The notes under the pieces are model-generated. The model was not told where the DNA came from and ran no database searches. It was given only the letters and a program-made list of their open reading frames with translations. Below, in pieces: positions 31 to 26,591 of a DNA stretch of 35,520 bases. The position numbers and the translations under genes were made by a program. Within the stretch, counting starts at the first letter, position 1; each line of letters begins with the position of its first letter. The DNA is taken from NCBI GenBank assembly GCA_024762835.1, contig JANTGP010000012.1:1-35520 (forward strand), read 5' to 3'. The stretch comes from Bacteroidota bacterium. Its GTDB lineage: Bacteria; Bacteroidota; Bacteroidia; Bacteroidales; M50B96.

Positions 31-3000
31 TTATTCAACACATAATTGTTTCACAATTTCATATTCCGGAGTCTTCATTTTATAATAATAAATACCTGCC
101 GGAACATCTTTATCAGGTACAAGTAATTCATGATAACCCCCTGAGAAGCTTTTATTTATTAAAATGTTAACTTCTTCACCTAAAGAGTTATAAAGTATTA
201 TCGACACATCAGAACTCTCAGGCAAATAAAAACCTATCGTAGTGTTACCACTAAACGGATTTGGATAATTCTGATATAATTTTGCCTTATTATTTTCACT
301 TGTCTTTACTGTTCCAACAATACTATAAGTATCACTAATATAAAAATCATAACCTTCAATCATCTTAAATATTGAAATATCACTAATATTTCCGGTATTT
401 TTGCTCCAAAGTTTTAACCTAAATTTCTCTAAGTCAACGAGCCCATCCTTTATATCAGAATATGTATCATTCCCCCATATTGTGATAAAAGTATTGGAAT
501 TTTCAAAGACAGATGCACCTACAAGTATGTTCTCACTAGAATAAACGGCAATTTCATCACCCATTTTAGGAGTATTATCCCATGCATCTTTAGGGATTAC
601 CAAAATCATATTCTTACCGGTATTAATAATATCAGTATAATGAACCGGCTTTACTTTCACACTTTTGCTTGTAGGACTAATTCCATTTGCATCATAAAAC
701 AAAACTGATGTTGTGCTTAAAAGTATTTGATAACCTTTGCCCGGTTGCATATTGCCAATGTTATTAAACCCAAATGCAGGCCAGTAAACATAACCATCAC
801 CATCTTTCATCATAATTATATTGCTTGCGATGCTATTAACAGCTAATGCAACTTCCATTGGATTGGTTCGCAAATATCCTAACAAACTCCATCCAACAGG
901 AATAACAATACCGGTAGTATCCGGCATTACCTGGTCACCTATAATCTCAACAGAATCACTATTCAACATCGAAACCTGATATCCTTCACCAATCGCCATA
1001 TCGCCAATTGAGTTAACACCCCAAAATGGCCAATATACACTTCCACTTCCATTTTTCACTAATAATACATTGCTAACAACCGGATTAAAAACACTTTCGA
1101 GTGACGGGTCAATAGGTGAAATAAATGTTGAAATTATACTCCAACCTGAATTTAAAGCAATTGTTTGTGAAGAAAATTCTACAGTAACAACAATTGTATC
1201 AATTGCAGAACATTGGTTGTCATCTGTCACCTCAACCCAAATAATGTTATCGCCAGATGGCAATGAATCTGAGAATACAGGATATACTTGTGAGTTTAGT
1301 CCGTTAGACCATAAAAATGATGTAAATCCAACTCCGGCATCAAGAATAATAACAGTATCGTCAATTGTAATATCTGGTCCTAAATCTACATAAGGTAGCG
1401 AGAACATAGTAACATTGATTTGATCTTCGGCTGTACAGCCAAACTGGTTACTTACTGTTAAAGAATATGTATCCGGAACAGATATATCTAATAATTGGTT
1501 TGTTGAACCGTTTGACCAAAGATATGAAAAATATTGTCCGGGATCTATTGTGATATATGAAGTTTCACAAAATCCGGTATCAGCACCAAGATTTAATTCA
1601 ACCTCATGGAATGTTACAATTATTTCATCATCATTAACACATCCATCTGTAGATGTAACTGTAACACTGTATAAGCCCGACTGGGTTGTTTCATGTGTAG
1701 ATAAAGTTGTTCCATCATTCCAAAAGTATGTATCTCCTATTCCAGCATCTAAAATTAATGTATCTCCTACACATAAATTTTGGTCTTGTCCTAATTCCAC
1801 ATTAGGAAGTGGATTAAAAACAATATTTACATCGCTGGAAGATTCACATCCATTTTGAGAAGTTATAGTAACAGAATACAGTCCACTTGTATTTACCGTA
1901 ATTGTTGAATCAGTTTCTCCTGTATTCCATTCATAAATAAAATCAGGACCAGCATGTAAAATAATCGTTTGACCATCACATTCAAATTGGTCGGGGCCTA
2001 AATCGACAGGAGTAGTTTGATTTACAATAACCATTTGAGTATCGGAACCAACACATGTTCCATCAGTATAAGTATAAACTAAAGAAAAGTTTCCAGGCCC
2101 GGCTATGGAAGGATCAAATACATTTCCTATCATTCCCTGTCCTGAAAATACTCCGCCAGCAGGATTTCCTGTTAAAGTGATAGGTGAATCTCCGGTACAT
2201 ACATAAACGGTTCCGCCAACAACAAAACTAGTGCTTTGAGAATATACGGGTTGTTGTTGTTGAGGAATATCATAAGTTTGAATTCCTGTTCCTGTTCCAA
2301 AGTCCGGTGTAATATTATACCAGCTATTATGCCAACCATCTCCATATACATCATGAGCTATAAAAGTATAACTTCCAAAAGGGAGATTAATATAATCGTT
2401 ATAAGAATAGCCATTTGATGTTCCGGCAGGTGAACTTAACATAACAACACCATTATCAGATACAATTTCCCATGATTGTTCCCAATACCAAGGCGAATCG
2501 TAAAAGACTTCAACCATTACAGGAACATTTACAGGTCCTGTATAAAGGCCTGAAAAACTAACATCAGTTCCTGTAACAGATACTGTTTCTGTTACCGCAT
2601 TATAGCAACCGGTATTTGCGTCATAATGTGTATACATAATATCATGCAATCCCGGTCCTGCTTCAAATGGGTCAAATGTGTTACCTGAAACCCCATCACC
2701 ACTATAGGTTCCACCGGAAGGGTCACCGGTTAATAAGACAGGGCTGTCGTATAAACAATATGCGGAATCTAAGCCCAAAATAAATACCGGCGAGGGTGTC
2801 ATATGTTCAACCACAAATACCATGGTATCGTTAGTTGGGTTATTATCTCCTGCAAAAGAAACTGCTAAAGTTACCTGATATTGACCTATGTTTGAAAAAT
2901 CTACAGTTTGAGGAAATGAGTAGTCCAATATTCCTCCGGAAGGAATAGTTGTTAAGACATTGTCTAATACAAATGGACCTCCGTCGATACTGTATGAAAT

Positions 3001-5220
3001 ATCATAGTTTGAAATATCAAATCCCCCATTATTCTGAACTTGTGCAATTATCGTTTCTGATGATGATAAAGAACAATTAGATTCAGGTGAAGCCAAATTT
3101 ACTATTCCGGCATCCGGTAGTGGAATTTCTTGAATCAAAATATTATCAATCAAAGATACATTTCCGGGAGGAAATGCATATGAACTATACTTATTTGAAG
3201 CCTCAAGGGTTACAACAAACTGTGTTCCTGCAAAAAAAGACAAGTCAAATCTGTGTGTAACAAAAGTATCATTTTCTGCAGTTATAGGATGAAAATCCAT
3301 AATGCCATTATCATCAGGAATTTGTAATCCATCAACAAGAACTCTAAACCAAGTATATTTAGGTCCTGTTCTGTAATACTGTTTTAAATCAAGAAACATT
3401 TCGACAGTTGACAATGAGCTTGCATCAACTGTGCATGTATATGCAGATGACTTATAAGCATAATTTGTATTCCATGCATTAAATGGGCTTGTATTTGTTG
3501 AACCTCCAATCCAGCCAACATAATTAGTTGTTCCTCCTTCCAATTTAATTGCATAATTTAAATTGCTATTATTAAAACTGGCACTGGAGTTAAATTCATT
3601 TTCTAACTTGAAATAATCTGAATTTCCGGTTTCAAAATTCTCATAAAACGGAAAAGTGTTTATTGTATTTAAATTTTTAACAATAACATTACCCAATAAA
3701 TTATTTGTAGAAACGACATCGCCAGAATTAATCAATAAAGCCTGACATGTATATTCTCCAAGATTTGAAAAATCAGCAGAAGAAGAAAAGGTATATTCTA
3801 AAGTATCGCCGGGTAACAAGTTTTGGTTTACAGGCTCCATTTGATACGAAGGCGTACCCGTAATTGAATAGGCTAGGGTAAAATTGTTGATATTAACAGA
3901 ACCGGTATTCTTTACCTGAATTGTTATATTTTCATTTGAACTTAGATTACAACCGGATTCTGAAGGATACACCCAATCAATTATTGCAAGATCGTTGCCA
4001 GGGTTTAGGGCAACAGTAACATTATCAACATATAAATTATATCCGGATTCTGTACTCCCAATAAATTTTACATAAATGATATTGTTTGCAAAGTCGGTAA
4101 TATCAACTTCTTCGCTAACATATGAACCTGGTGATGAATAAGTTGCTCCGTCATAAGAATTTAAATAGATACCTGTTTTATTCCAAACAGGAGTCCATGA
4201 TTGTCCGAAATCTGTAGAAATCAAAACCTGTAATTCATCATTTAATGAGTACTGATCAATTCCACTTGACCAATCAAAGCTAAGTGTTGCAGGAGCTGTA
4301 ACATTTAAAGGAGGTGAAATCATTTCGGCTGTATCTGAATTCCAATAAAAGAAATTACAATAAGCTGCTGTATTTGCATATGAAAGCCAACTCTCTGTTC
4401 CATCAAAACTCCAACCTGCTGGTGGCCAAACAGAAAATGTTTCTTCCCATGGATAAGAGCTAATACTTGCATAAGAAATAACATCAGTATAAACAGTATC
4501 ATTTGCATGCATTACATCAAGGGACGCGGAAACAACAGCAATACAGTTGTATGTTCCAGGAGATGATAAATTAGCTGTTTGAGAAAAAATAAATTCTATT
4601 GTATCACCAGGATTTAAGCTATTACCAAAAGGTTCTTGAACAAAACTAGTACCTCCATCAATAGAGTAAAACAAATTAAAACCTGTTAATACTGTTTGTC
4701 CATAGTTTCTAATAATTATTCCAATATTTTCAGAATTTGTTAACCCTGGCGAAGAGCTGGGAAAATCCCAACTAACTATCCCCATATCTACATCTGCTGA
4801 AGAAAAAACTGTAAAATCAACTTCATATAAATTGCCAATTGCAAATGAGTCAATAAGACCTGTACCAATCCCCACAGAAGGAACTACTTGAAACCAACCA
4901 CTATCAATAGGCCAACCATCTCCATACGAATCGTAAGCCTTAAATGAATATTCGCCGGGAATAAAATTTATTGTTTGATTATATGAAAAATAAGAAACAG
5001 ATCCGGATGGTCCAGGTCCTCCGGATAAAACAATGCTATTATCAAGTTTATTGATTATTTCCCAAGAGCATTCGTTGGCATCATTTGCACCATAATGCAC
5101 CTGAACCAATACAGGTTCCTGTGAAAAAGCATAAGATACTAAAGAAAAAAATACTGCCAAACCCACAGTAAACTTGTGTAATTTTCTCATCATAAGCAAA
5201 ATATTATTTATAACAACCAC
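31..5220 (-). CDS. Very large secreted multidomain protein with T9SS type A C-terminal sorting domain; CARDB/Ig-like and adhesin-like modules (start probably ~5193, MMRKLHKF...)
   Basis: 1729-aa ORF; N-terminal signal peptide MRKLHKFTVGLAVFFSLVSYAFSQ; C-terminus LYQNYPNPFSGNTTIGFYLPESSDVSIILYNSLGEEV...GGYHELLVPDKDVPAGIYYYKMKT typical of T9SS sorting domains; internal repeated modules. Confidence 0.9.
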   Translation of the reverse strand: MVVINNILLMMRKLHKFTVGLAVFFSLVSYAFSQEPVLVQVHYGANDANECSWEIINKLDNSIVLSGGPGPSGSVSYFSYNQTINFIPGEYSFKAYDSYGDGWPIDSGWFQVVPSVGIGTGLIDSFAIGNLYEVDFTVFSSADVDMGIVSWDFPSSSPGLTNSENIGIIIRNYGQTVLTGFNLFYSIDGGTSFVQEPFGNSLNPGDTIEFIFSQTANLSSPGTYNCIAVVSASLDVMHANDTVYTDVISYASISSYPWEETFSVWPPAGWSFDGTESWLSYANTAAYCNFFYWNSDTAEMISPPLNVTAPATLSFDWSSGIDQYSLNDELQVLISTDFGQSWTPVWNKTGIYLNSYDGATYSSPGSYVSEEVDITDFANNIIYVKFIGSTESGYNLYVDNVTVALNPGNDLAIIDWVYPSESGCNLSSNENITIQVKNTGSVNINNFTLAYSITGTPSYQMEPVNQNLLPGDTLEYTFSSSADFSNLGEYTCQALLINSGDVVSTNNLLGNVIVKNLNTINTFPFYENFETGNSDYFKLENEFNSSASFNNSNLNYAIKLEGGTTNYVGWIGGSTNTSPFNAWNTNYAYKSSAYTCTVDASSLSTVEMFLDLKQYYRTGPKYTWFRVLVDGLQIPDDNGIMDFHPITAENDTFVTHRFDLSFFAGTQFVVTLEASNKYSSYAFPPGNVSLIDNILIQEIPLPDAGIVNLASPESNCSLSSSETIIAQVQNNGGFDISNYDISYSIDGGPFVLDNVLTTIPSGGILDYSFPQTVDFSNIGQYQVTLAVSFAGDNNPTNDTMVFVVEHMTPSPVFILGLDSAYCLYDSPVLLTGDPSGGTYSGDGVSGNTFDPFEAGPGLHDIMYTHYDANTGCYNAVTETVSVTGTDVSFSGLYTGPVNVPVMVEVFYDSPWYWEQSWEIVSDNGVVMLSSPAGTSNGYSYNDYINLPFGSYTFIAHDVYGDGWHNSWYNITPDFGTGTGIQTYDIPQQQQPVYSQSTSFVVGGTVYVCTGDSPITLTGNPAGGVFSGQGMIGNVFDPSIAGPGNFSLVYTYTDGTCVGSDTQMVIVNQTTPVDLGPDQFECDGQTIILHAGPDFIYEWNTGETDSTITVNTSGLYSVTITSQNGCESSSDVNIVFNPLPNVELGQDQNLCVGDTLILDAGIGDTYFWNDGTTLSTHETTQSGLYSVTVTSTDGCVNDDEIIVTFHEVELNLGADTGFCETSYITIDPGQYFSYLWSNGSTNQLLDISVPDTYSLTVSNQFGCTAEDQINVTMFSLPYVDLGPDITIDDTVIILDAGVGFTSFLWSNGLNSQVYPVFSDSLPSGDNIIWVEVTDDNQCSAIDTIVVTVEFSSQTIALNSGWSIISTFISPIDPSLESVFNPVVSNVLLVKNGSGSVYWPFWGVNSIGDMAIGEGYQVSMLNSDSVEIIGDQVMPDTTGIVIPVGWSLLGYLRTNPMEVALAVNSIASNIIMMKDGDGYVYWPAFGFNNIGNMQPGKGYQILLSTTSVLFYDANGISPTSKSVKVKPVHYTDIINTGKNMILVIPKDAWDNTPKMGDEIAVYSSENILVGASVFENSNTFITIWGNDTYSDIKDGLVDLEKFRLKLWSKNTGNISDISIFKMIEGYDFYISDTYSIVGTVKTSENNKAKLYQNYPNPFSGNTTIGFYLPESSDVSIILYNSLGEEVNILINKSFSGGYHELLVPDKDVPAGIYYYKMKTPEYEIVKQLCVE

Positions 5221-18520: not shown

Positions 18521-18955
18521 TTACTTAGTTCCGGTATGCCCAAAACCACCTTCGCCTCTATCAGTTTCTTCAAGAATATCAACCTGTTCCCATTCAACTT
18601 GTTCATGTTTTGCAATTACCATCTGACAAATTCTTTCACCATCTTCAATTAGAACAGGCTCATTACTTAAATTAATAAGTATTATCCCTATCTCGCCTCT
18701 ATAATCAGCATCAATAGTACCTGGCGAATTCAATACTGACAATCCTTTTTTAAGAGCCAGCCCGCTACGTGGACGCACCTGTGCCTCGTATCCAACAGGT
18801 AAAGCAATAAACAATCCGGTCGGTATAAGCTTTCGCTCCAGAGGCTTTAGCTCAATCCCTTCGTTGATATTAGCTCTGAGATCAATCCCCGCAGAGTGTT
18901 TGGTACTGTACTTTGGTAAACTATGTTTTGATTTATTAACTATCTTAATTATCAT
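18521..18955 (-). CDS. dut: dUTP diphosphatase
   Basis: 144 aa; all dUTPase motifs: [43 protein letters not shown]. Confidence 0.97.
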
Positions 18956-19140
18956 TTATTTACTTCTTTATAATTACACATACATTAAACAAATATTAAA
19001 CCTGCTAAAATACTCATTCTTTGCATAAATCAATCTTAAAAAAATATAATAATATTTGCAGCCGTTTTTCTTAAAAAAAGATAGCCTAAGGTATTATTAT
19101 GGAACTGCTGAAAGACACAAAAAATTTTAAGTAATCCCTA

Positions 19141-19230
19141 TAAATCCGAATCGGTCAACACTGCATTAATCTCGGCATTGTTGCAGAGCTTAGTCGAAGT
19201 ACCGGCGAGATGAATGCATAGGTGTTGTCG
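19141..19230 (+). repeat. Structured dispersed repeat, copy 1
   Basis: Shares TCAACAyTGCATTmATCTC...TTGTTGCAGAG(c/t)TTA(g)TCGAAGTACCGGCGAGA.GAATG with copies 2 and 3; arms 19156-19175 / 19202-19227 pair. Confidence 0.85.
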
Positions 19231-19501
19231 TTTCGTTGTTTCTTCTTCCTTACGTTGGTAGGGTAAGCTCTTCCCGATTTTATCAGAATGTGCTTGGCTG
19301 TATAGGCTAGCTATACATTTGGTTTGATAATTAATGTGCTTTTCAAATCTGTTAAAATCAAGTTGAAGTTTCCTCGATAGGAATGAAGTAAGTCAATAAT
19401 ATATACTACACGCTGTACAGGAGTGCCTGCCGGACTCAAGTTTTTATGAATTTAGCCATATTGGTTTTGTTATCTACAAAATATACTATTGATCTTCCCA
19501 T

Positions 19502-20575
19502 CTATTCAGTCTGTATAATAAGTTCGTAAATTTTAAACCAATAGAAAAAAGCTTCCGGATTAGATTTCTTCAATTTGTTTAGTTTGTTATTCAAAGGCTC
19601 CCCAATCTGCCAATCTTTCAATAATTTGGGATTATCAAATCTCTCAATTACAGCTGTATCTTCTCTGATAAGTATCGAAATGTATGCCGCTTTTGATGCT
19701 AGTATAATAGCTTTTTCTAAATGAAAACTCTCGGAAAATATGAATCCGGTAATTCTTCTAATTCCAAGTTGTAATTGTTCAAAGTCCCCTTTACCATCAG
19801 CACCTCTTGTTACAATATTTAATGAGGTTTGATAAATATCTTCCAATACATCATTCGCTGTTAACTCATCTATAGCTCTGTATGTTAGTTCAGTTTCAGC
19901 AAATGTGAAAAAGGTGGTCTTAATTATTTCTAAATCCTTTGCAACATCAAATAGATTACCAATATCGTAAAGCTGCTTAATGATTTCCATACTCATACTG
20001 TCTTTCTTCTTGAAATATGGAATACCAGTTGTGTTCGGAGCAAAAGCTGTTAGTTTATCACCTAGCATATCTTCCAAACATGGAACCTTTACTGCAACTG
20101 GGTCTCCTTCAAGCGGCACAAAAGATGATTGAATCGGAATCTTAATTACATTTGCATAGCCAACCTCTTCAAAAAGAATATCAAGAAGCACGTATTCTTC
20201 CTCTTTATTCGATTTGTGTATTGGAGTATAGAAAAATTTGTAGTGTTCTTTTTTGATTTTAGTATTTGTACTCCTATGTTGTAATTCTAATTTTGTAAAA
20301 CCTTGTTCAACGACAATTTTTTTAAGAATATCGTCAAACCCTTCAACTTCTTCGGACAAAATGACATCGATATCAATGGATAACCTTTTTGAATAATTTA
20401 GATGTAACATTAATGCTGTACCTCCTTTAAACACAAACGGAATTTCTTGCACTACTAAACCTTCAAGCAATAGTAAAGCATGAATAACTTTTTCAACCAA
20501 AATTTTGTCTGATTTTCTATTCTGCTTAGATACTTGACTAATCCAATCTATATTGATTTTATTCTTATCTATCAT
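19502..20575 (-). CDS. AbiEii/AbiGii-type nucleotidyltransferase toxin
   Basis: 357 aa; FKGGTALMLHLNYSKRLSIDIDVIL NTase motif; EDMLGDKLTAFAPNTTG; downstream of an AbiEi-like partner with a 3-nt gap. Confidence 0.9.
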   Translation of the reverse strand: MIDKNKINIDWISQVSKQNRKSDKILVEKVIHALLLLEGLVVQEIPFVFKGGTALMLHLNYSKRLSIDIDVILSEEVEGFDDILKKIVVEQGFTKLELQHRSTNTKIKKEHYKFFYTPIHKSNKEEEYVLLDILFEEVGYANVIKIPIQSSFVPLEGDPVAVKVPCLEDMLGDKLTAFAPNTTGIPYFKKKDSMSMEIIKQLYDIGNLFDVAKDLEIIKTTFFTFAETELTYRAIDELTANDVLEDIYQTSLNIVTRGADGKGDFEQLQLGIRRITGFIFSESFHLEKAIILASKAAYISILIREDTAVIERFDNPKLLKDWQIGEPLNNKLNKLKKSNPEAFFYWFKIYELIIQTE

Positions 20576-20578
20576 ATT

Positions 20579-21409
20579 CTATAATTTGGCAGCATTATCT
20601 GTTTTGTTGCCGTAAATTTGAATAGTACTTAAATACTCTTGAAAATTTTCTTTTTTTCTTCTTCTACTTGCATATCGAAGCATTTTACTGTGGTTAACAG
20701 TGTATTTGTTAAATGCTTCTTGAAAAATAGTTCTAAGTTCAGCACCTTGTTGAGCTGAAAAAATAATTGTATCAGAAAATATGTCTACCAATAATTTCTC
20801 AATAGTAACTGTTCTAATATTGCCATTTTCTTGTAGTGGTGATTCTGATACTAAAGATTTAATTATTATTGCTTCCTTATCTGTGGGCAAATACTTTTCT
20901 AATATTTCCTCTGTAGGCTTAATGAAGACAGGATAATTCAATTCTTTAAGGAAATAAAAAACAGATTGAGCTACTTCTTTTTCAACTTCAACTATTATCT
21001 GAAAATTGCCGGGTTGATGTTGCATAAATTCATTCAGTATTTTTGTATTCCATACACAAATTTGAACAAATGGAAACTCAGACCTTAGTTTGTCGTATAT
21101 TACCTTTTCTTTTCTGTTTAATTCTGGTAAAAATATATTATTAGAACCTAAACAAAATTTTCCTCTTCCAATGCGAGTTAATATACCTTTTTGAACTAAG
21201 GCATACACTCTCCAATTAATAGTAGTTTTTTTAACAAGAGGGTCTAATGAAAGATAAAATTCACTAATGTCTTTTGTTGTAAAGTAATTAGCTTTATTAA
21301 ATCTCTCTTCTAATTGGTCGATATGTAACTTCTTATCTCTGATAATCAAATTTTTAAAGGACAAAGATAATAAAACTATATTACGGCAGCAAATAATGTT
21401 TATTGCCAT
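20579..21409 (-). CDS. AbiEi-like antitoxin partner (DUF6577-type); likely start near 21349, not 21409
   Basis: wHTH N-terminus (YFTTKDISEFYLSLDPLVKKTTINWRVYALVQKGILTRIGRGKFCLG); adjacent to AbiEii; promoter box inside the called 5' end. Confidence 0.75.
   Translation of the reverse strand: MAINIICCRNIVLLSLSFKNLIIRDKKLHIDQLEERFNKANYFTTKDISEFYLSLDPLVKKTTINWRVYALVQKGILTRIGRGKFCLGSNNIFLPELNRKEKVIYDKLRSEFPFVQICVWNTKILNEFMQHQPGNFQIIVEVEKEVAQSVFYFLKELNYPVFIKPTEEILEKYLPTDKEAIIIKSLVSESPLQENGNIRTVTIEKLLVDIFSDTIIFSAQQGAELRTIFQEAFNKYTVNHSKMLRYASRRRKKENFQEYLSTIQIYGNKTDNAAKL
21362..21369 (-). promoter_or_regulatory. Bacteroidota -7 box (TATCTTTG) with TTTG about 20 nt upstream, for the AbiE operon
   Basis: Minus strand ...attatTTGctgccgtaatatagttttatTATCTTTGtcc; matches TTTG-N20-TAnnTTTG. 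Confidence 0.65.
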
Positions 21410-21768
21410 TAATTAGAGAGGAGTGAAGGGTAAAATAGCTCTTTGCAAATTTAGGTTGTTGGTTGGTGTGTGATTTGCCAATATGTGCAATGTGAGTGGA
21501 CTTCCCCAACTGTAGAAATGGACAGAAGCGAGCGAGTAAAAACTAATTTTTTCTTGTACCTATCCAGATAGATATCATAAGATGATCTGCTATCTGTTGT
21601 CATAATTTGTAGTACTCTTATTTTCGTTTACCCTTTTTGCATTACCTCAATTGCTTCTTGATAAATACTTCATTCTATTATTATTCATTTTTATAGCCAG
21701 TATATCTGGGTCTTAGCTCGCAGCCTACACAGCTTTTAGAGGTATTTCGTTTTACTATTTGGTTTCGT

Positions 21769-21900
21769 TTTTTATAGATTCTTCCACCTTGGTAGATTCA
21801 ACCAGTAAATCTGGATTAATCAATATTGCATTCATATATGGTTTTGGAACTGAGCTTAGTCGAAGTACCGGCGAGACAAATGCTTAGTTGTTAGGCATCG
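21769..21900 (+). repeat. Structured dispersed repeat, copy 2
   Basis: TTGGTAGATTCAACCAGTAAATCTGGATTAATCAATATTGCATTCAT...CTTAGTCGAAGTACCGGCGAGACAAATGCTTAGTTG; near-identical blocks in copy 3; ends 1 nt before the ATPase stop codon. Confidence 0.88.
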
Positions 21901-21901
21901 G

Positions 21902-23047
21902 CTATTTTATCGTAACAAATTCTCTAAAATTATTCTTATTAATCACTTTTGTGTCAGCATTATATGACTTAACAAATGTTTCCGGCAATTTTACTTTGGA
22001 TTTAGAATTCCACTTAAATTCAAACCCTGTTATTTTCCCATCTTTTTCTTCTACAAAATCAATCTCTTGTTGTTGTTTTGTTCTCCAAAAATACATTCTT
22101 GCAAATGTATCTTTATAAGCATTTTGCTTTACTCTTTCTGAAATTAAAAAATTTTCCCAAAGTGCACCTGTATCCACTCGTAATTTTAATTGATTAAAAT
22201 TACCTATTATCATATTTCTTATACCATTATCATAAAAATATATTTTCCTATTTCGTTTAATTTCATTTCTGATATTTCTACTAAAACTGTTCAAACGAAA
22301 AATAATATATCCTTTTTCAAGAATCTCAATATATTTCTGAATAGTAACTTTATTTACACCTACTGTTTGTGCAAGTTCATTATAATTAACTTCACTTCCT
22401 ATTTGTAATGCAAGAGCTAAAAGCAAATTATCAAGAATTTCAGGCTTTCTAATTTCCGAAAATGCTAAAATATCCCTATACAAATAGCTACTAACAAGAT
22501 TTTTTAGAATTACTCTTTCTTTTCCTTGGTTATTTAATACTTCGGGATAAAACCCAAATAATATACGATTTTCAAGTTGCTGTTCTGATTTTATAAATCC
22601 TTCTTTCTTTTCAAACTCTTCCCATGAAATTGGAAATAATTCATACTCCCACTTTCTTCCTGTTAACGGCTCATTCAACTTATTTCCTAAATCAAACGAT
22701 GAAGAGCCTGAAACAAATAGCTGAACATCTTTAAATTGGTCTGTTATTATTTTTAAAGTTAAGCCTATTCCATCAATCCTCTGTGCCTCGTCAACAAATA
22801 CAGTTTTATAATCACCTAAAAATGTTCGAATCTGTTCTGTATTTGGATTTGTTAATAATTGTCTGATAATTGGGTCATCTGCATCAAAAAATAAATATTC
22901 TTTTTCTTTCAACAAATTCCTAATTAGTGTTGTTTTTCCAACTTGTCTTGCTCCAACTATAATTATCGCTTTCCCACTTCCAATTCTATTTTCTATAATT
23001 TCTTCAAGTGTTCTTTGATACATTATCTTTTTTCTACAAAGATGCAA
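21902..23047 (-). CDS. AAA ATPase with DUF4143 C-terminal domain; likely start 23023 (MYQRTLEEI)
   Basis: Walker A IIVGARQVGKTTLIRNLL, Walker B KTVFVDEAQRI, sensor SGSSSFDL, wHTH LAQTVGVNKVTIQKYIEILEKGYIIFRL, C-terminal IDFVEEKDGKITGFEFKWN nuclease-like segment. Confidence 0.9.
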   Translation of the reverse strand: MHLCRKKIMYQRTLEEIIENRIGSGKAIIIVGARQVGKTTLIRNLLKEKEYLFFDADDPIIRQLLTNPNTEQIRTFLGDYKTVFVDEAQRIDGIGLTLKIITDQFKDVQLFVSGSSSFDLGNKLNEPLTGRKWEYELFPISWEEFEKKEGFIKSEQQLENRILFGFYPEVLNNQGKERVILKNLVSSYLYRDILAFSEIRKPEILDNLLLALALQIGSEVNYNELAQTVGVNKVTIQKYIEILEKGYIIFRLNSFSRNIRNEIKRNRKIYFYDNGIRNMIIGNFNQLKLRVDTGALWENFLISERVKQNAYKDTFARMYFWRTKQQQEIDFVEEKDGKITGFEFKWNSKSKVKLPETFVKSYNADTKVINKNNFREFVTIK

Positions 23048-23055
23048 AAAATATC

Positions 23056-23089
23056 GTAATGACCAAAAGTTATACTTTTATGTCATTAC
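23056..23089. promoter_or_regulatory. 34-bp imperfect palindrome overlapping the predicted -33 box of the ATPase gene (operator-like)
   Basis: GTAATGACCAAAAGT TAT ACTTTTATGTCATTAC; arms match apart from one mismatch/indel. Confidence 0.7.
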
Positions 23090-23178
23090 AGTATCGCTGT
23101 CTAGCTTGCACATAATGGCTGTCTCCGCAATAAGCTCCTTTAACTTTCAAAGGTACAATAATATCTCATTAGCTTGCA

Positions 23179-23310
23179 ATTTTTGTAGATTTTCTCACCT
23201 GGTAGATTCAACCAGTAAATCCGGATTAATCAACATTGCATTCATCTCCGGCCTTGTTGCAGAGTTTATCGAAGTACCGGCGAGACGAATGTTTAGTTAT
23301 TGCTGATGTT
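23179..23310 (+). repeat. Structured dispersed repeat, copy 3
   Basis: CCTGGTAGATTCAACCAGTAAATCCGGATTAATCAACATTGCATTCATCTCCGG...CCGGCGAGACGAATG; stem arms 23239-23251 / 23277-23291. Confidence 0.88.
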
Positions 23311-23765
23311 CGTCCATGTTTATTTGTCATTCTATCTATTAGCTCTAATCTTCATTCCTTATCAATTTACACCAACCTATCAACTAAGCACAAACTTATT
23401 TTGTTTTTTTGCATGGGCAATCCTTAAACCACCTATAAAGGCGGTTACTTGGGATGAAAAAGCGGAAGCTCTTCCCGAAAATCGGGATATGCTTACAACT
23501 GTGTGTTTGCTATTTTATTTTTCAAGAATTTCTATTGCATTATAAATATTTGAATTTATCGGAGGCTTATAAAATTTCATTCTTTCAGGAAACATTTTAA
23601 CACAGTCGGTTTTCATGTTGTAGTGTAAATTGTATAAAACCTTACATCTTTATTGCATAAACATGCAATTCTAACCCACATGAAAGATAATACTTGATTA
23701 TAGTAGATACTAGTAACAAGTCAAGCAAAAATAGTTGAAAAAGACTTTGGCAATATTAATTCGGG

Positions 23766-25271
23766 CTATTTATGTGTTTCGCTTATTATTTTATTTAAGG
23801 ATTTCTTTTCAAATAAATATATCAGTATAACGAAAGATAAAAATAAAACTGCATTTAACATAAGTTTTAAATATTCTGTTTCAATATTATTAAACATACT
23901 TATAATAAATATCAGTAAAGCAATAAAAATGTATCTAAAAATAGACTTCAAATCATAATTTATATAAAATATCTTCCGACCCCAGAAGTATGAAATAATC
24001 ATCATTGCAAAATAACATGAGAAACGTGCCCAGGCAGAAGCAGTATAGCCAAGCTTGGGAACAAATATTATGTTTATAAGTATAGTAATGGCAGCTCCTG
24101 TTATTGCTATTACAGCACCATAAGCTGTCTTGCTGGTAAGCTTATACCATACCGATAAATTATAGAATATCCCCAGAAATAAATTGGCTAATAGAATAAT
24201 CCAAACGATAAATAATCCTTCATGAAACTTAGAGTCGATAAAATACTTTACTATATCGAGAAATAACATTACGCCAAGAAAAATCAATAAGCCGAAAATT
24301 ATAAAATACTTCATCACATCGGCATATGTTTTTTTTGAGTTTTTCTCTTTGGCTTGCGAAAAGAAAAAAGGTTCGGCGGCAAATTTAAACATCTGAATAA
24401 ATATGGTCATTAGCACCGCTATTTTGGTGTTTGCCCCATAAACCCCAATCACACTTGTTATATAATCGTTTTTGTCCTGTATTGCATCCGGAATAGTTAA
24501 AAAGAACCTTAAAAAATACTTATCCGACACTTCGTTTATCATACCCGCTATTCCAATAATTACAAGAGGATAGGCGTATTTCAACATATGTTTAAACAGC
24601 TTAAGATCAAACTCTAATCGTATTTTAAAGATTTCCGGAATTAATAAAACAAATGTAAATACCGAAGCAATTAAATTAGCAATAAAAGCGTAACCTACAC
24701 CAATTTCGGGGTTATACAATTTTAATAAAAACGTATCGGAACCGTTTTTATAAGCATCGGGTAAATAAACAAAAAACAACAGATTGAATCCGATGTTTGT
24801 TAATATATTTAAAATCTTTATTACGGTAAAATGTACGGCTCTGTTCTCATGCCTAAGACGGGCAAAGGGAATTGATAAAAAAGCATCGATACCCAAAATA
24901 ATACCAAGCCAAATAAAATACTCCTGATGATTGGAATAACTTAACTTATTGGCAATATCGGGTGTAAAAATATTTATTACAAATATAAATATTACAGATG
25001 CTGCAAGAAGGAATAAAGCGGCTGTACTGTAAACCTTATTTTTATCTTTTTCGGTGGACGCAAATTTGAAATATGTTGTTTCCATGCCAAAAGTAAGTAT
25101 TACCATTACCAAGGCAACATAAGCATATAGCTCTATCACAACACCATATTCGCTTTGTTGAAATATGCTTGTGTAAAAAGGTGTAAGCAATAAATAATTA
25201 AGCAAGCGAGGAGCAATTGTTCCAAGTCCGTAAATTACTGTTTCGCTTGCAAGTTTTTTTATTGAATTCAA
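23766..25271 (-). CDS. Polysaccharide biosynthesis / oligosaccharide flippase (Wzx/MVF-like)
   Basis: 501 aa, ~14 hydrophobic helices, N-terminus SETVIYGLGTIAPRLLNYLLLTPFYTSIF typical of flippases. Confidence 0.9.
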   Translation of the reverse strand: MNSIKKLASETVIYGLGTIAPRLLNYLLLTPFYTSIFQQSEYGVVIELYAYVALVMVILTFGMETTYFKFASTEKDKNKVYSTAALFLLAASVIFIFVINIFTPDIANKLSYSNHQEYFIWLGIILGIDAFLSIPFARLRHENRAVHFTVIKILNILTNIGFNLLFFVYLPDAYKNGSDTFLLKLYNPEIGVGYAFIANLIASVFTFVLLIPEIFKIRLEFDLKLFKHMLKYAYPLVIIGIAGMINEVSDKYFLRFFLTIPDAIQDKNDYITSVIGVYGANTKIAVLMTIFIQMFKFAAEPFFFSQAKEKNSKKTYADVMKYFIIFGLLIFLGVMLFLDIVKYFIDSKFHEGLFIVWIILLANLFLGIFYNLSVWYKLTSKTAYGAVIAITGAAITILINIIFVPKLGYTASAWARFSCYFAMMIISYFWGRKIFYINYDLKSIFRYIFIALLIFIISMFNNIETEYLKLMLNAVLFLSFVILIYLFEKKSLNKIISETHK

Positions 25272-25283
25272 AATCTTATTTTA

Positions 25284-26591
25284 TTAATAACACATTTTAT
25301 AGTGAACAATATTTGCCTCGATAAACTGCTCTCCCTCTATTCTAAAACCAAACTTCTCGTAAAACTTAACTGCACTTTCTTGAGCATGAAGATAGAACAT
25401 AACATCTAAACTATCTAAATCATTTATCATTGTGTGCAACATAAATTTACCAACACCTTCATTTCTATATTCTTTAAGTACTGCAAAACGCTCAATCTTA
25501 ATACCTTTATCGGTTTTTCGCCATCGAGCAGTTGCAATTGCTCTATTATTGTCAAATACCAGGTAGTGCTGGCAATATTTGTCTAATCCATCAAATTCTA
25601 AATCACGGTCTACCTCTTGCTCTTCGACAAATACTTTTTTTCTAATGTTCGAAGCTTGTATAAAGTGAAACTCATCGTCGTAATTAAATCTTATTATCTG
25701 AAACTTTTGGTTTTCTTCGTAAGCATCAATAAACACTGTTGACGATATCTTAAGTTTTTTACGTATTAAACGAACCAGTTTTGAAGTAATTTTGTTTGCA
25801 TCTCTTAAATTCATTTTTCCCGACAAACGAATATGAAAGGTTAACTCCGTGTGGTTACCGTATTTATGTACATGGATATGATGTATATGTAATGTTTCAT
25901 GATACACTTCTGCAGATATTTTTTCTAGGTTTTCTCTTAACTCTTCATCAGGTCCTTCGCCAATAAGCGGGTTTATTGTATCTTTTAATATTTTATATGC
26001 TGTAACTAAAATAAATAATCCAACGCCTATTCCTAAAATACCATCCATCCACCAATAAATATCAGCAAAGAAAATACCTATAAGAATAAGCAAAGAAGAT
26101 AAAGCATCTGTACGGTGATGCCAGCCATCGGCTACCATTGAATGTGAATTAACCTTCTTGCCATATTTTATTGCAAACCAAGCCATTATTTCTTTAGCAA
26201 CTACCGAAACAGATGTTACAATAATTGCAATTAAACCAAAATCAGCAGGCTGTTTTTCGTTAAGCTTAACAATTGAGTCGTGGATAAAAACAACACCCAC
26301 TATTGCCAGTAATACCCCAATAATGATTGTTGATATTAGCTCAGCTCTACCATGTCCGAAGGGGTGTTCTTCGTCGGGAGGTTTATCTGCCACCTTTGCT
26401 CCTAGCAAAACAATAAGCGATGTAACCGAATCGGATAATGTATGCCAGGCATCGGCAATCATAGCAACAGAACCGGATACTACTCCTGCCCAATATTTAA
26501 CCGCAAATAAAAGAAGATTCAATATCAACGACATTCTACCCTCAATCTTTGTGTATTTGCTATACTTATTTTCTGTGTTTTTATCCATCAA
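25284..26591 (-). CDS. Cation diffusion facilitator (CDF) transporter fused to a C-terminal GNAT acetyltransferase domain
   Basis: 435-aa uninterrupted ORF; CDF motifs IADAWHTLSDS and VADGWHHRTDALSS; then GNAT segment ARWRKTDKGIKIERFAVLKEYRNEGVGKFMLHTMI...FYEKFGFRIEGEQF. Confidence 0.92.
   Translation of the reverse strand: MMDKNTENKYSKYTKIEGRMSLILNLLLFAVKYWAGVVSGSVAMIADAWHTLSDSVTSLIVLLGAKVADKPPDEEHPFGHGRAELISTIIIGVLLAIVGVVFIHDSIVKLNEKQPADFGLIAIIVTSVSVVAKEIMAWFAIKYGKKVNSHSMVADGWHHRTDALSSLLILIGIFFADIYWWMDGILGIGVGLFILVTAYKILKDTINPLIGEGPDEELRENLEKISAEVYHETLHIHHIHVHKYGNHTELTFHIRLSGKMNLRDANKITSKLVRLIRKKLKISSTVFIDAYEENQKFQIIRFNYDDEFHFIQASNIRKKVFVEEQEVDRDLEFDGLDKYCQHYLVFDNNRAIATARWRKTDKGIKIERFAVLKEYRNEGVGKFMLHTMINDLDSLDVMFYLHAQESAVKFYEKFGFRIEGEQFIEANIVHYKMCY

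Follow-up and report, generated by a model that had tools for sequence, protein, structure and literature searches.

A cassette array between dut and a flippase gene in a Bacteroidota genome suggests a non-canonical integron system with an Xer-like integrase

The window, a stretch of 35,520 nucleotides (positions 1 to 35,520 of contig JANTGP010000012.1) from the draft genome of a Bacteroidota bacterium that is 90% complete (GCA_024762835.1, designated G000), carries an island of accessory genes and repeats between dut and a flippase gene (Table 1). The five genes of this region are all located on the minus strand, which is also the functional orientation of the repeats. The AbiEii protein of the island matched its family above the cut-off, and its partner is a DUF6577 protein with weak, sub-cut-off similarity to AbiEi_4; the domain matches of the cargo thus agree with the earlier note, which had described an accessory island with defence or toxin-antitoxin genes. 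Neither an integrase gene nor an attI site was detected within the window. Outside the island, one ORF (25284-26591) combines a cation-efflux transporter domain with a GNAT acetyltransferase domain.

Table 1. Features of the dut-flippase region of the window and integrase remnants at other loci of the source genome.
Feature	Position	Strand	Evidence or remark
dut, core gene flanking the island	18521..18955	-	PF00692, E 6e-32
attC-like repeat 1, last site of the array	19139..19227	-	profile 81 bits, E 7e-24; hairpin fold
AbiEii-type nucleotidyltransferase, cassette cargo	19502..20575	-	PF08843, E 3.5e-20
DUF6577 protein, likely AbiEi-type partner	20579..21409	-	PF20217, E 5e-79; AbiEi_4 PF13338 below cut-off
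attC-like repeat 2	21802..21893	-	profile 77 bits, E 1e-22; similarity runs on to 21769
AAA_14 and DUF4143 ATPase, cassette cargo	21902..23047	-	PF13173, PF13635
ATPase cassette start, TT ATGTGCAAGC..	23095..23115	-	limit of the conserved long repeat
attC-like repeat 3, long form, end ..GGAGACAGCCATT	23114..23302	-	profile 88 bits; conserved part about 189 nt
TACCTTTG, promoter-like element	23148..23155	-	resembles TAnnTTTG; by sequence
flippase, core gene at the opposite flank	23766..25271	-	Polysacc_synt
integrase 3' remnants	L058:4789-5074, L101:2585-2894, L098:1-158, L099:10-117, L049:564-671, L102:808-918, L051:539-652		

In 11 of 19 relatives, dut directly follows the flippase gene, with approximately 15 to 215 bp between the ends of the two matches, and in a genome of the same family (G002), whose flippase orthologue is 65% identical, the distance is 62 bp. 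Since the genes are direct neighbours in these relatives, about 4.8 kb were gained between them in the source genome, as the earlier note had suspected.

The three same-orientation repeats reported by the earlier note were recovered by pairwise comparison, copies 2 and 3 sharing 83% identity over 122 nt (E 4e-29) and copies 2 and 1 sharing 76% identity over 86 nt (E 4e-10). Copy 2 (21769-21900) had also been placed correctly as ending 1 nt before the stop codon of the ATPase gene; as delimited by the profile, the repeat begins 9 nt past this stop codon on the minus strand, and it is the only copy of the window that directly follows an intact gene. The long form represented by copy 3 is also present at the loci L044, L046 and L048. 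The border in front of the ATPase cassette is degenerate, reading CA|TT at 23114-23115, and the match between the start and the end of this cassette is weak. The element TACCTTTG resembles the Bacteroidota promoter element TAnnTTTG and may provide a putative promoter for the next cassette. A scan of the window against Rfam yielded no match. The exact 21-nt core of the repeat had no match in GTDB contigs or IMG/VR and is, with respect to these collections, specific to the source genome.

A BLAST search of the source genome with the repeat resulted in 34 matches, and a profile search detected 31 merged copies on 19 contigs, many of them near contig ends. Arrays of repeats, with a single orientation per contig, are located on C45, C29, C19, C77, C189, C145, C275 and C12. 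A stop codon on the same strand lies at most 35 nt before the repeat start in 21 of the 31 copies, compared with 523 of 15,200 random positions (3.4%), and the repeat mostly starts 8-14 nt past the stop codon; the other 10 copies have no stop codon nearby upstream. The genes preceding the repeats vary and often encode toxin-antitoxin or defence-like functions; the cargo includes HigBA-like, ParE, PIN, Fic, RhuM-Fic, AbiE, KilA-N, PLD-like and MerT proteins, two DUF4143 ATPases, the second of which is cargo of another array (L048:630-2057), and further proteins without a Pfam match. The proposed tie of the repeats to variable cargo thus held, most of the copies being placed at stop codons and not scattered at random. 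The idea that the repeats bracket two modules stood in part: the copies do share one orientation, but each of them belongs to the 3' end of one cassette, that of the preceding gene on the minus strand, instead of enclosing a module from both sides.

On the coding strand, the repeat has the consensus nnnnAACAACTAAGCATTCGTCTCGCC-(loop)-GGCCAGAGATGAATGCAGTGTTGAC.., in which the loop contains a 22-nt unit in 0, 1 or 2 copies. The sequence folds into an imperfect hairpin whose spacer is unpaired and whose loop varies. The 22-nt unit, ACTTCGACTAAGCTCAGTAACA, was found in these differing copy numbers per hairpin loop at L044, L046, L047 and L049, and G039, a different genome, contains dispersed copies of a related unit. 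A MITE-like element of about 165 nt with inverted ends CTAGTGTTAAATCAAG.. is inserted inside the CTAG of the attC tail at four sites (L050 by 3959-4022, L056 after 655, L042 after 983 and L058 by 3344-3408).

A REP- or MITE-like repeat, or a family of terminators, whose copies built the island by homologous recombination, would be in keeping with the dispersal and hairpin-forming capacity of the copies, with the 22-nt unit, which occurs dispersed in G039 as well, and with the separate MITE-like element within some copies. A family of this kind would not be expected to occupy a fixed position past stop codons, to keep one orientation per array, to end at sharp G|TT borders, or to show the cassette-specific matching of starts and ends and the linkage to an integrase described below, and we regard this origin as the least probable of those considered. 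Of the two routes of mobility that had been suggested, an enzyme acting in trans is possible and homologous recombination between repeats is disfavoured, site-specific recombination of cassettes being preferred because the anatomy comprises attC-like sites, attI-like sites and an integrase.

At several loci of the source genome, the first cassette gene has a co-directional, degraded integrase 3' end in front of it; at least seven such remnants are present, two of them with internal deletions. Conservation past these remnants ends at ..GTATATTTGTCCATATATTTACTAG|TT, beyond which the sequence is locus-specific; the remnants carry an attI-like end of the form ..ACTAG|TT, and a second type of integrase ends similarly with ..ATTTACTTG|TT. 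Within the arrays, long-form repeats of about 190 nt end with ..GCGGAGACTCCCG|TT, and the sequence beyond is divergent. The inner GTTGACT of the repeat was considered as the crossover point and was rejected, since long-form copies still agree past GTTGACT and diverge only beyond ..CCCG|TT.

The cassettes delimited by these borders follow a simple rule, according to which the bases after GTT at the start match the reverse complement of the bases before AAC at the end, as in the first cassettes of C45 (start GGCGGTCATTGT, end GGCGGTTCGTTGT), C19 (GTAAATCATT, GTAAATCGTT) and C50 (GGCTTTATT, GGCTTTGTT). With cassette borders placed by eye from the conserved flanks, the mean score in the source genome was 6.0 for own pairs and 3.5 for swapped pairs, and none of 100,000 permutations reached the observed sum. 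Class 1 integron cassettes, used as a control, match over 8-12 nt including GTT, and the same rule is known in circular integron cassettes as the R'/R'' relation. Among 22 selected ungapped pairs, 21 have A at position 8 of the start and G at position 8 of the reversed end. When the junction is folded, these positions would form a G-T pair if the bottom strand is used and an A-C mismatch if the top strand is used. The fold of the bottom strand is the more stable one in 20 of 26 junctions, which is a slight preference. Taken together, the start/end rule and the A/G mark offer a simple means of locating cassette borders.

The sole near-full gene of the integrase in the source genome is located on C114 and encodes 561 amino acids before being cut by the contig end, the other copies being remnants. 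From its N terminus, the deduced protein consists of an extension of about 300 amino acids with three HARP-like modules, a SAM-like domain and an Xer/XerA-like catalytic domain, which is alignable throughout with XerA, XerC and XerD. The protein differs from these recombinases by its sub-cut-off scores (178 vs 220 bits for XerA, 158 vs 335 for XerC and 148 vs 330 for XerD), by the HARP-like extension and by the gene position upstream of cassette arrays. The distance from GKGxKDR to HxLRH is 58-62 amino acids in 22 integrases, compared with 100 in IntI1, and the additional-domain segment of IntI4 (2a3v) has no counterpart. Accordingly, by motif spacing, alignment with 2a3v and TIGR02249 scores below the cut-off, the IntI-specific additional domain is absent from these HARP-type integrases. 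The HARP assignment itself is weak: PF07443 reached E 6e-4 and 19.7 bits in one protein, below the Pfam gathering cut-off of 25, and a profile of the SMARCAL1 HARP domain (PDB 4o66) matched the N-terminal modules with E 0.16, a similarity at the level of sequence. The catalytic-domain tree has long branches, groups IntI1 with E. coli XerD and does not place these integrases closer to either IntI or Xer. The N-terminal profile matched 50 of 396 genomes of the phylum and 50 of 295 of the order (13-17% of those sampled), many of these matches being weak and spanning one module only. Relatives of the integrase among genome contigs and of the ATPase among viral contigs were not confirmed.

Homologues of the integrase are encoded upstream of 2-16 attC-like repeats in six relatives, each at least 98% complete. 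No protein exceeded the TIGR02249 cut-off for canonical IntI in these genomes (G027, G257, G356, G396, G536 and G674) or in the source genome. The integrase of G027 is 31% identical and is followed by the same attI-like end, ATTTACTAG|TT, and by restriction-modification genes; its attC-like repeat of 127 nt is different from that of the source genome, and its first cassette starts with ACCACCAATGCT and ends, in reverse complement, with ACCACCAGTGCT. In the other relatives the integrase is followed by 16 (G674), 9 (G356, about 130 nt each), 7 (G536), 6 (G257) and 3 (G396) attC-like sites, with one orientation within each set. The array of G356 also contains several near-identical cassettes of about 640 nt in tandem (L135, 7044-13043). 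With automatically placed borders, the start/end rule was found in 15 of 15 cassettes of G674, where none of 20,000 permutations reached the observed value; the corresponding numbers were 95 in G536, 174 in G257 and 365 in G356, and G396 with its single, uninformative cassette carries no weight. The sequence ..ACTAG|TT or a similar one past the integrase 3' end, with immediate divergence beyond, was observed for the remnants of the source genome, for G027, G643, G126 and G396 and for others. The stretches analysed beside the integrases of G384, G250 and G500 showed no direct-repeat array, and the contigs of G001, G020 and G329 end shortly past the integrase gene.

These arrays bear on two further explanations. 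The mobile unit could be a whole element comprising integrase, cargo and terminal repeat, so that arrays would be tandem insertions that have lost their integrases; this is compatible with the 3' remnants before the first gene at several loci of the source genome and with the order repeat, integrase remnant, gene on C29 and C275, but it conflicts with the single integrase followed by many cassettes in G674, G536, G257 and G356 and with terminal matching that is specific to individual gene cassettes, and is accordingly considered very unlikely. An ordinary CALIN of a canonical integron, in which a classical IntI is missing from the draft or resides in another cell and the HARP-type integrases are unrelated neighbours, appears improbable as well. 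Such a CALIN would be in line with the incompleteness of the draft, with the co-occurrence of IntI and HARP-type integrases in some genomes and with the classical appearance of the attC-like sites in G356 and G027. The lack of an above-cut-off IntI in the six nearly complete relatives argues against it, as does the attI-like border at the 3' end of the HARP-type integrase gene, where the arrays of several genomes start.

The island of the window is thus very probably, as judged from its sequence, a short integrase-less (CALIN-like) array of cassettes that belong to a non-canonical integron system. The repeats resemble the recombination sites of an integron-like gene-capture system that is widespread in apparent Bacteroidota, an affiliation indicated by gene content (Por_Secre_tail) and promoter-like motifs, and for which an integrase without the IntI domain is probably responsible. 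Each cassette would comprise one gene or operon and, behind it, an attC-like site. A tyrosine recombinase whose gene lies elsewhere or has since been degraded would recognize the folded attC-like hairpin of the circular cassette and join it to G|TT, either in the attI-like site that its own gene carries at the 3' end or at a genomic site. The latter reaction would scatter defence and toxin-antitoxin cassettes over the chromosome, in this case between the flippase gene and dut. We infer that the recombinase moving the cassettes of the window belongs to the Xer-like family with HARP-like N-terminal modules and no IntI-specific additional domain, because of its linkage to the arrays, the attI-like site at the 3' end of its gene and the absence of IntI; the HARP-like modules may take the place of the IntI domain in recognizing folded DNA. 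The broader proposition, a phylum-wide class of integrons whose Xer-like recombinase reads folded attC hairpins through HARP-like modules and spreads defence cassettes, has in our judgement an even chance of being correct.

With class 1 and sedentary chromosomal integrons and CALIN, the arrays share the succession of a gene and an attC-like imperfect palindrome with AAC ... G|TT ends, the complementarity of cassette start and end, an attI-like site next to a tyrosine recombinase gene, one cassette orientation and accessory cargo. They differ in that the integrase has HARP-like N-terminal modules instead of the additional domain, is co-directional with the array and carries the attI at its 3' end, in that the start/end match extends about 12 nt past GTT and shows a constant A/G difference at position 8, and in the scattering of arrays over many loci of the source genome. 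Integrons with a reverse-oriented integrase occur in Spirochaetota and were described as IntI (PMC9668308); they are alike in the atypical orientation of the integrase, whereas the additional domain is absent here. Insertion of cassettes into genomic attG sites was described for IntI1 (Loot et al. 2024, as cited in PMC12901181), and the settling of cassettes between dut and the flippase gene could be similar; a comparable process would explain cassettes at many chromosomal sites of this kind.

The additional domain has been regarded as defining or necessary for IntI activity (PMC9668308, PMC8138268) and was used as a selection criterion (PMC2426708), and a survey listed for Bacteroidetes no more than cassette-less integrases and a single complete integron, that of Salinibacter (PMC9024848). 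No earlier description of such arrays was found in the open-access literature, a scope that leaves out most subscription papers and preprints. If the proposed system exists, the HARP-type class would have been overlooked wherever surveys demand the IntI domain. Integrons being a principal site-specific gene-capture system, cassette arrays tied to an integrase without this domain would widen the definition of integrons and would help to explain the spread of toxin-antitoxin and defence genes in Bacteroidota, and the HARP-type integrase would offer a second, testable solution to the recognition of folded single-stranded DNA.

Three genomes, G296, G481 and G500, encode a canonical IntI (about 475 bits) together with a HARP-type integrase, in which the spacing from GKGxKDR to HxLRH is 59 amino acids, and provide a natural comparison pair of the two recombinases. 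Finally, on the minus strand of L046 (contig C45 of the source genome), a stretch between the repeat at 3749-3817 and the gene at 2625-3332 was recognized by eye as similar to the 3' end of a group II intron; it resembles domains V/VI and abuts the attC-like site. Group IIC-attC introns likewise sit beside attC sites.
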